From assembly GCA_016789245.1 (NCBI GenBank), contig JAEURM010000046.1:1-10381 (forward strand): a stretch of DNA of 10,381 nt, read 5' to 3'. This DNA is from Anaerolineales bacterium (GTDB lineage: Bacteria > Chloroflexota > Anaerolineae > Anaerolineales > UBA6663). Positions 410 through 8,724 of this stretch are shown piece after piece (the first letter of the stretch is position 1; every line of letters starts with the position of its first letter). The notes below the pieces were generated by a model, which saw only the letters and a list, made by a program, of their open reading frames with translations, did no database searches and was not told the DNA's origin. Position numbers and translations under genes: made by a program.

Positions 410-441
410 GTTTGATATTTTATTACTTGTTTAAGCCTGCC

Positions 442-448
442 GCCTAAC
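442..448 (-). other. Candidate integron attI core site (GTTAGGC on the minus strand)
   Basis: On the minus strand the bases read GTTAGGC, an exact match to the integron core consensus GTTRRRY and to the version most often found at attI and attC recombination points. It lies 112 bp upstream of the intI start codon and on the strand opposite to intI, which is the position and orientation of attI in a canonical integron. No second core site that would make an attC, and no cassette ORF, is present between it and the gyrB terminator. A seven-base match can arise by chance, so the placement carries most of the weight. Confidence 0.35.
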
Positions 449-451
449 TAT

Positions 452-480
452 GTTTTATACAGCCACTGGCTATATAAAAC
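452..480. repeat. Palindrome 1 upstream of intI
   Basis: A 29-bp near-perfect inverted repeat is centred on base 466. The arms are GTTTTATACAGCCA and TGGCTATATAAAAC, with 13 of 14 positions paired. It shares its core with a second palindrome centred at 506, 15 of 19 core bases being identical and all four differences being transitions. It may be an operator for a dimeric repressor, an integrase-binding element of the attachment region, or an RNA hairpin. Confidence 0.6.
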
Positions 481-493
481 CCCAATATGGGTG

Positions 494-518
494 ATTATAC
501 AGTCGTTGGCTGTATAAT
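494..518. repeat. Palindrome 2 upstream of intI, 40 bp from palindrome 1
   Basis: A 25-bp inverted repeat is centred on base 506 (ATTATACAGTCG, T, TTGGCTGTATAAT with one G-T and one T-G mismatch near the centre). Its centre is exactly 40 bp from that of palindrome 1, about four helical turns, so two bound dimers would face the same side of the DNA. Each arm contains TATAAT read outward, one on each strand. A protein bound here would cover a -10 element for intI on the + strand and could cover one pointing towards the presumed cassette side. Confidence 0.6.
513..518 (+). promoter_or_regulatory. Possible -10 element of the intI promoter
   Basis: The hexamer TATAAT is a perfect -10 match, 42 bp upstream of the intI ATG, and lies inside the right arm of palindrome 2. 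No recognisable -35 hexamer sits 16-18 bp upstream, so the promoter assignment is weak. Confidence 0.3.
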
Positions 519-560
519 TCCCTATGTACAGATTATAAAGCCACACCCTCGAAGCCACAA

Positions 561-1538
561 ATGCAACCGCCAAAACCTGCTCCGAAGAAATTGCTTGATC
601 AATTTCGCGACCAGATTCGCGTCAAGCAGTATTCAACCCGCACCGAAAAGACTTATGTTTACTGGGTCAGAGAATACATTTTGTTTCACGATAAGCGTCA
701 TCCGAAAGACATGGGCGTAGCTGAAATTACGCAGTTTATTGCGCATTTGGTCACTGAGCGGAAAGTGTCGGGTTCCACTCAGAATCAAGCCTTGAGCGCC
801 ATTTTATTTTTATACCGTAACCTATTAAACATTGAGCTAGAAGAAGAAACTCTTTACCGCCTTCGGCCCCAAACGGGCAAAAGCGTGCCGGTAGTTTTAT
901 CTCGCTCAGAGGCCAAACAAGTCATTACCCACCTGACGGGCATCTACAAAACTATTACCCAAATCATGTATGGCAGTGGCTTGCGCATCATGGAAGTATT
1001 GCGTTTGCGGATCAAGGATTTGGATTTTGCCAATCACCAAATCATAGTGCGCGACGGCAAAGGCGGCAATGACCGAGTGACCATGTTGCCGGAGGCGGTC
1101 ATTGCACCCCTGCAAGACCATCTGAAGCAAGTAAAACTTATGCATGAGCGTGACTTGAAGGCGGGTTTTGGCTCCGTTTACTTGCCGTTTGCTTTAGAAC
1201 GCAAGTATCCCAACGCGCACAAAGAATGGATTTGGCAATACGTCTTTCCGGCTTCGTCACTTTACAAAGACGTAACCACTGGCATTACGCGGCGTCATCA
1301 TTTGCACGAAACAGCCGTGCAAAAAGCTGTTCGCCAAGCGGCGCAGACGGCGAACATCGCCAAACATGTTACGCCGCACACCTTCCGCCATTCGTTCGCC
1401 ACGCACCTGCTCCAAAATGGTTATGATATTCGCACCATCCAAGAACTCTTGGGTCACAAAGATGTGAAAACCACCATGATTTACACGCATGTGCTTCAAC
1501 GCGGCGGCCTCGCCGTCCGTAGCCCGTTAGATGACTAA
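561..1538 (+). CDS. intI: Integron integrase (tyrosine recombinase, IntI family)
   Basis: This 325-residue site-specific recombinase would catalyse attI x attC and attC x attC exchange to capture or shuffle gene cassettes. The N-terminal SAM-like/core-binding domain (about 8-95) carries typical IntI phrases such as [17 protein letters not shown] and KRHPKDMG. The catalytic domain has Arg142 (SGLR), Lys167 (GKGGNDR), His273 and Arg276 ([14 protein letters not shown]), His299 (LLGHKD) and the nucleophile Tyr308 (MIYTHV). The segment at about 195-231, with [20 protein letters not shown], is the extra element that separates IntI from XerC/XerD. The ending [16 protein letters not shown] is also IntI-like. 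All key residues are present, so the enzyme looks active. The start at 561 is the only ATG in frame after an upstream stop at 492; no clear Shine-Dalgarno precedes it. The coding sequence looks more AT-rich than its neighbours, which hints at transfer. No cassettes are visible. Confidence 0.95.
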
Positions 1539-1618
1539 GGGTGGGTTGCCGTTCCAAACAGGCGTATTGTTTCCTCGTTCGTGTTTGCTCCCCTCTTGCT
1601 AAAACTCCTAACACCCTC

Positions 1619-1647
1619 TTGACTCCGCTCTAAATTTGTCATAGACT
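1619..1647 (+). promoter_or_regulatory. Predicted promoter of the amino-sugar operon
   Basis: TTGACT (1619-1624) is followed after exactly 17 bp by TAGACT (1642-1647), a good -35 and a moderate -10 for a housekeeping sigma factor. The -10 overlaps the dre-like operator, a usual arrangement for repression. The expected start of transcription near 1654 would leave a leader of about 25 nt before the gntR ATG. Confidence 0.5.
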
Positions 1648-1668
1648 GGTATATACCACTCAATACCA
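1645..1668. promoter_or_regulatory. dre-like operator for the GntR/NagR regulator
   Basis: Bases 1645-1660 read ACTGGTATATACCACT, with a perfect 12-bp palindrome TGGTATATACCA at its heart. It matches 14 of 16 positions of the DasR-responsive element as I recall it (ACTGGTCTAGACCACT), the operator type of the NagR/DasR branch of HutC regulators. A second half-site ATACCA at 1663-1668 repeats the right half-site at 10-bp spacing, one helical turn. The operator covers the predicted -10 and start of transcription just upstream of the regulator gene, which fits autorepression. No similar full site was seen elsewhere in the window. Confidence 0.75.
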
Positions 1669-1678
1669 GATAAAGATT

Positions 1679-8256: not shown

Positions 8257-8259
8257 GTG

Positions 8260-8724
8260 ATGCCGGATATTTTGATTAAACTTTACGCCCTCCCGCGCGC
8301 CCCGCGTAACATGGAAGGTGTGGAAATTCGGCGGCCAATGCCGCACGAGAAGCACCACATCTCTGCTTGGGTGGCCCAGCATTTTGAGCCGGGCTGGGCG
8401 GCGGAGTTTGAAGTTTCGTATCGGCATAGCCCCGCTTCTAGTTTGATTGCCGTGCGTGCGGCGCAGGTGGTGGGTTTTGCCTGTTTTGATGTAACCAGCC
8501 GTGGCTTTTTTGGCCCCACCGGCGTTTTGCCCTCTGAGCGCGGGCAAGGTTTGGGCACGGAATTACTTATCCGGAGTTTGTGGGCGTTGCGAGAGCTAGG
8601 TTATGCCTACGCCATCATTGGAGATGCTGGCCCGGTGGAGTTTTATCAGCGGGCGGTGGGCGGCTTGGTGATTCCAGAGTCTGAGCCGGGCATTTACCCA
8701 GCGCCTTTGCAAGGTGAGGCGTGA
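8260..8724 (+). CDS. GNAT-family N-acetyltransferase in the nag operon
   Basis: This 154-residue acyl-CoA-dependent acetyltransferase has a standard GNAT length. Motif A, which binds the CoA pyrophosphate, is visible as GVLPSERGQGLGTELL with the R-G-Q-G-L-G loop at 94-99. It follows the beta-4 strand FFGPTGVL. The beta-5 to C-terminal region has AYAIIGDAGPVEFYQRAVGG, in which Tyr129 stands where many GNATs have their general acid. The target is unknown. Its place between the GH3 enzyme and nagA suggests an amino sugar such as free glucosamine or a partly deacetylated chito-oligosaccharide, but this is inference from context only. ATG 8260 was chosen over GTG 8257 because GGAG at 8250-8253 lies 6 nt before it. 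The gene starts 3 bp after the upstream stop and overlaps nagA by one base. Confidence 0.85.
   Translation: MPDILIKLYALPRAPRNMEGVEIRRPMPHEKHHISAWVAQHFEPGWAAEFEVSYRHSPASSLIAVRAAQVVGFACFDVTSRGFFGPTGVLPSERGQGLGTELLIRSLWALRELGYAYAIIGDAGPVEFYQRAVGGLVIPESEPGIYPAPLQGEA

Follow-up and report, generated by a model that had tools for sequence, protein, structure and literature searches.

An integron integrase gene without cassettes beside gyrB in an Anaerolineae contig, and dispersed attI sites without integrase genes in its relatives

An integron integrase gene that stands by itself beside a housekeeping gene may be what is left of a decaying integron, a recombinase with some other function, or a working part of a system whose cassettes lie elsewhere. 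Such a gene is found on a stretch of 10,381 bases (the window), which was analysed over its whole length and is, to judge by that length, a complete metagenome contig. The contig begins within gyrB, whose 3′ end occupies positions 1–378 of the + strand and is followed by an intrinsic terminator at 384–409, listed by the terminator prediction on the + strand only. The right flank of the integron is a GntR/UTRA regulator gene (1,679–2,419, + strand), the first gene of a GlcNAc-type operon. Behind it come genes for a SIS protein, for the binding protein and two permeases of a sugar ABC transporter, for a beta-N-acetylhexosaminidase-like enzyme and for a small protein that matches nothing in NCBIfam; then follow nagA and a final gene, SIS-like by reading of the protein only, that runs off the contig end. 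This setting, gyrB upstream of intI and a GntR regulator with a sugar operon downstream, is the one described by the first-pass annotation, and matches to TIGR01059 and PF00986 for gyrB and profile matches for the regulator bear it out. A palindrome, TGGTATATACCA, lies at 1,647–1,658 just ahead of the regulator gene and is perhaps the regulator's operator. An Rfam scan of the contig returned eight matches at E ≤ 5, every one far below its gathering score, and a weak MicX match at 372–523 was rejected on this ground.

The integrase gene itself, intI (561–1,538, + strand), is full-length and uninterrupted and encodes an integron integrase of 325 aa; the public gene call is 315 aa long, with its start at a TTG ten codons later. 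Against TIGR02249 (cut-off 265) it reaches 446.7 bits, compared with 154.5 bits for XerC and 152.5 for XerD, and residues 14–323 of the protein align with IntI4 of PDB 2a3v at 284.9 bits, an alignment spanning the IntI-specific insert and the catalytic motifs. The motifs GSGLR, GKGG, HTFRH, LLGHKD and YTHV, which hold the residues regarded as catalytic in tyrosine recombinases, are all present, together with an insert of 18 residues. The profile score, the alignment and the motifs uphold the earlier description of a complete IntI with its catalytic residues and specific insert. In a tree rooted on a single poor Xer row (L275; L269, L270, L271 and L273 were left out for lack of a usable frame), with unsettled bootstrap values, the protein pairs with the IntI of Chloroflexi bacterium OLB14 (96/79) amid Chloroflexota and cyanobacterial IntI. 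This pairing, and the named genomes that hold the closest IntI among the matches listed, are consistent with the Chloroflexota (Anaerolineae) host that had been proposed. Relatives are abundant: the best 80 loci were kept from a genome scan, so at least 80 exist, and a match at E ≤ 1e-80 is present in 52 of the 101 genomes related to that of OLB14, three of these matches being partial or broken (G417, G436, G444).

Are there cassettes on the contig? A motif-and-fold search, which requires an RYYYAAC...GTTRRRY pair whose ends complement each other and come together in the fold, with inner boxes between them, gave 24 matches upstream of intI and two to three downstream, by strand, across the best 80 relatives and the contig, and none in the 10,381 bp of the contig. 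A covariance model (R1) was built from 17 of the 24 sites, leaving out seven that were weak or cyanobacterial (L010, L038 twice, L039, L044, L058, L068). Run without filters on the contig, R1 reached at best 12.0 bits (E 0.022, a rough value), and no convincing attC was found. That best match is a hairpin of 26 nt at 8,374–8,399, 6.8 kb from intI and inside a gene (8,257–8,724), and it matches only the outermost ends of the model. On 61 of the best 80 relatives, the 19 cyanobacterial loci being left out, R1 found 49 attC at E ≤ 0.01 with 27.2–119.8 bits, 17 of them training sites; all 49 lie on the minus strand upstream of intI. In a control of 45 stretches of related genomes (186,201 bases) there was one match, of 37.3 bits. 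This control match (L275:178–305) is attC-like and lies near a different tyrosine recombinase in genome G006.

The first-pass annotation had seen no attC-like pair near intI and had suggested a scan with an attC covariance model; on the contig both searches agree with it. A complete integron has at least one attC cassette adjoining attI. Here none does, and gyrB ends 63 bp before the attI core. By its sequence the locus is thus an In0, an already known class defined as intI without attC in the IntegronFinder 2.0 survey (PMC9024848), with attC absent within the contig; cassettes may lie elsewhere in its genome. Cassettes are common among its relatives: among the 61 loci, attC are present at 18 of the 23 that have at least 2 kb upstream of intI. 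The five others (L003, L007, L021, L025, L077) lack attC despite this length, but we do not claim them as In0, because at one of them (L025, in genome G423), tried as a second In0 for want of attC within 5 kb and then rejected, an array of 17 attC was found, the nearest of which lies 5.0 kb from attI.

The interval between gyrB and intI (379–560), in which the first-pass annotation had seen no attC-like pair and no cassette ORF, is not empty: it holds the gyrB terminator and an intact-looking attI that had been overlooked (440–528, + strand). The site belongs to a block common to many relatives upstream of intI, which starts with RYYYAACTA and contains two palindromes with a C-run and a G-run between them. 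A model (R2) was built from 18 intI-linked attI only, those of the contig and 17 relatives; the contig site scores 91.1 bits (E 1.1e-18) as one of these training rows, and sites outside the training set score up to 92.1 bits. The core, a conserved block of the 18 aligned attI, lies on the minus strand at 442–448 (GCCTAAC on +, GTTAGGC on −), and its AACTA is invariant across the alignment. Crossover is predicted between 447 and 448. The cassette side of the site is occupied on the contig by gyrB.

Five boxes of a common half-site can be recognized: the core box at 440–447, which points leftward, and those at 455–462, 470–477, 495–502 and 510–517. The second and third are the arms of palindrome P1 (452–480), whose left arm reads TTATACAG, and the last two are the half-sites of palindrome P2 (494–518), whose pairing was compared across the 18 attI. 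The core box and the first arm of P1 face each other over 7 nt, and the remaining arms stand back to back. Facing boxes of this kind are how the pair of integrase sites in an attI is expected to be arranged, and the left arm of P1 is a probable L box. The half-site motif TTA[TG][AG]C[AG]G, in which the first position may also be A, has 226 matches in the 93 attI regions from which it was itself derived, compared with 26 after mononucleotide shuffling; in these regions 131 palindromes form 7 or more of their 8 outer pairs, against 62 in dinucleotide-preserving shuffles. In the alignment of 18 attI, 84.3% of the palindrome cells pair (78.4% when shuffled) and 16 cells are changed on both sides (6.6 when shuffled), values reached in none of 500 shuffles, and two-sided change affects seven pairs (4.2 when shuffled; 14 of 500 shuffles came as high), of which six belong to P1 and only one, out of nine, to P2; in these statistics related rows can exceed shuffles without any structure, and the structure was chosen from the same sequences. 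Similar palindromes about 40 bp apart occur in cyanobacterial attI regions (L038, L044, L058, L062), with three copies in L062 and with half-sites closer to the core sequence in L038 and L044.

A search of the 101 related genomes with R2 gave a match at E ≤ 0.001 in 38 of them and, once opposite-strand echoes were dropped, at least 75 attI at E ≤ 1e-6 (73 of full length, the other two slightly shorter), a lower bound since only the best 43 candidates per genome were scored, under stricter filters; the control of 186,201 bases yielded no match. Sixteen of the 75 adjoin an intI, several of them being training sites. The other 59 have no complete intI alongside, and one of these (G001 C10) is accompanied by a truncated one. 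These orphan attI (L210–L268) were analysed together with as much as 5 kb of flanking sequence to the left and right, and R2 recovered all 59 in the flanked loci. At least 1 kb of contig is available on the intI side of 54; at the remaining five (L210, L236, L242, L249, L251) an intI could lie past the contig end. An attC is found within 5 kb of 41 of the 59 orphan sites, and of 38 of the 54 with sufficient intI-side sequence; at 18 of the 59, R1 found none in the sequence searched, up to 5 kb on each side. The model made 101 matches at E ≤ 0.01 in these loci, 100 on the cassette side and on the expected strand, the other being the opposite strand of a site already counted. In a tblastn search of the 59 loci, pieces of intI were seen beside L230 and L268 only. 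An IntI match at L236 (32% identical) was rejected as intI, since the recombinase is diverged and lies on the opposite flank of attI.

The orphan attI are spread over 25 genomes, 13 of which also carry an intI (12 if G323, whose sole orphan site is L251, is set aside). In G428 an orphan attI (at 169,577) and an intI (at 3,989,108) share a single contig of 4.74 Mb, a layout that cannot be put down to breaks between contigs. Ten attI-bearing genomes have no IntI match at E ≤ 1e-20 (G353, G426, G408, G415, G443, G416, G425, G420, G407, G447), and their intI has been either lost or missed by the assemblies; G422 and G434 hold IntI fragments or a diverged recombinase. On the intI side the neighbours of the orphan sites, by reading of their proteins, are varied and include rpsP, ribF, ftsZ, clpC and gapdh. 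In three genomes the site lies upstream of rpsP and rimM and points towards rpsP (L252, L259, L267), which suggests an inherited position. In G418, three copies (L214, L215, L218) about 97% identical to their closest copy have different flanks, as if attI itself had recently been copied. Identity between attI averages 0.713 within and 0.669 between genomes (a difference reached in 0 of 1000 permutations), and host-specific lineages are not clean, since the closest copy is often in another genome.

The right arm of P2 contains TATAAT (513–518, + strand), probably the −10 of the intI promoter, although a promoter scan found no sigma-70 −35/−10 pair there. This hexamer is present in 16 of the 18 intI-linked attI on which R2 was built, compared with 11 of the 59 orphan attI (Fisher P = 1.0e-7, an optimistic value because the rows are related; two orphan sites without a readable hexamer were counted as lacking it), and the training of R2 on TATAAT sites works against this difference. 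In 28 of the 59 orphan sites the position reads TATAAC, which restores the symmetry of P2.

The overlap of palindrome and −10, together with arms that change and still stay symmetric, would also be expected if intI were controlled by a host repressor of the TetR or LexA kind and the palindromes were its operators, in place of boxes for IntI. Such operators would be compatible with an In0, and we regard them as rather unlikely in light of the distribution of the palindromes. The strict form TTATACAG N3-10 CTGTATAA occurs 24 times in ten genomes, whereas the reversed control pattern does not occur: 23 occurrences fall within core-bearing attI copies and the remaining one (G006 C34) is beside a core-less attI remnant, so that all 24 belong to attI or to what is left of one. 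Many of these copies have no adjoining intI, and the palindromes thus persist where there is no intI to control. The half-site is also similar to the core box, which it faces over 7 nt, and the distance between the arms of P1 varies from 4 to 9 nt, which is unusual for a rigid protein-binding pair and speaks against IntI binding as well.

The orphan attI bear equally on the suggestion that the integron has lost its array and that intI persists only for lack of time. Orphan attI are common in the clade, pieces of intI lie beside two of the 59, and In0 are a regular minority, 356 among 3116 intI in the IntegronFinder 2.0 survey (PMC9024848). On the contig, by contrast, intI is intact with its motifs, and the probable −10 and the attI core are kept, the reverse of the decay seen at orphan sites; we consider a decaying integron unlikely. 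Of the earlier proposal of an integron that lost its array, the cassette-less part stands, and both loss of an array and its never having been acquired fit the locus. The second earlier proposal, a recombinase kept for another purpose, draws on intI being alone on its contig beside a housekeeping gene. A domesticated enzyme with a non-integron function is nonetheless highly improbable, given the intact-looking attI that adjoins intI and the cassette arrays at 18 of the 23 close relatives with enough upstream sequence, among the best 80. Another purpose is not required either, because relatives show cassette-bearing attI without intI, and 13 of the 25 genomes with such orphan sites carry an intI; this IntI may simply carry out the usual integron recombination, at sites that it serves in trans.

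The position next to gyrB has so far no counterpart among relatives. The first-pass annotation had proposed a comparison of the gyrB–nagR interval across related genomes; no attI was seen at 12 gyrB loci of relatives, within about 0.7–1.5 kb past gyrB and with C-termini only 73–81% identical, and no gyrB–GntR synteny was found. In the stretches compared around the best match to the GntR regulator (71% identical), both gyrB and intI are absent.

Our preferred reading, held with somewhat better than even confidence, is an Anaerolineae-type chromosomal integron in its empty state, with a working-looking intI, a probable promoter and an attI, and with an IntI that acts also, or mainly, in trans. 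In such an integron, the recombination site bound by IntI would consist of the core box and the first arm of P1 opposite it, with the remaining palindrome arms as accessory sites for IntI; since these arms extend over the intI −10, their occupation by IntI could lower the expression of its own gene. Cassette insertion would occur at 447/448, and the cassette would then be read leftward in the direction of the gyrB terminator, which could stop attI-derived transcription too, a two-way action suggested by the A/T flanks on both of its sides. Because relatives have several attI-plus-cassette platforms without intI, the IntI made here would most likely work in trans on the other attI and attC of its genome. 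Several observations weigh against this reading: the variable spacing of P1, the single two-sided change among the nine pairs of P2, the lack of a sigma-70 −35/−10 pair at the intI promoter, and the 18 orphan attI at which no attC was found. The sequences themselves show intI, attI, the lack of a convincing attC on the contig and, in relatives, orphan attI with cassettes; that IntI is active, binds the palindromes, represses its own gene and acts in trans we infer from sequence comparison.

More broadly, one IntI may serve dispersed attI in trans, and the cassette-less intI of the contig may be such a source. We put forward tentatively, at a little under even confidence, a distributed Anaerolineae integron, in which one intI, sometimes cassette-less, serves dispersed attI that have no intI of their own and keep their boxes and arrays, attI being a repeated element of about 90–115 bp. 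Integrons are usually described as a single integrase beside a single attI with its array. If several attI on a chromosome do share one integrase, cassettes could land at many places that differ in their neighbours, a cassette-less intI would be no dead end, and counts of In0 and CALIN would need a new reading. Orphan attI would further be a natural experiment that separates the attI bases serving recombination from those serving the intI promoter.

The known systems offer partial parallels. Two archaeal In0 have been described, each from a genome whose other contigs hold attC clusters, and the cassettes of CALIN, attC clusters without intI, are usable by IntI in trans (PMC9668308). Accessory direct repeats of attI1, attI × attI recombination and co-evolution of attI with its integrase have been reported (PMC8946536), and several integron integrase types have been linked to sul4 (PMC12772301). 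Among the open-licence integron papers listed, no title or opening of an abstract describes several attI per genome. Taken alone, the contig is an ordinary In0, a class known across bacteria (PMC9024848), with an integrase and no attC nearby; it differs in that its attI is resolved, next to gyrB, and that its relatives have orphan attI platforms. Like attI1 of class 1 integrons with its DR1 and DR2 (PMC8946536), the site has a core with L and R boxes and extra putative integrase sites beside the integrase gene, but these form palindromes, with arms back to back and about 40 bp from one palindrome to the next, where attI1 has direct repeats, and one of the palindromes overlaps the probable intI −10. 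What is new lies in the relatives, where attI outnumber integrases and bear cassettes without one. These platforms resemble CALIN in having attC and no intI, and differ from them in keeping a full attI, whereas the accessible definition of CALIN turns on the absence of intI and leaves attI unmentioned.
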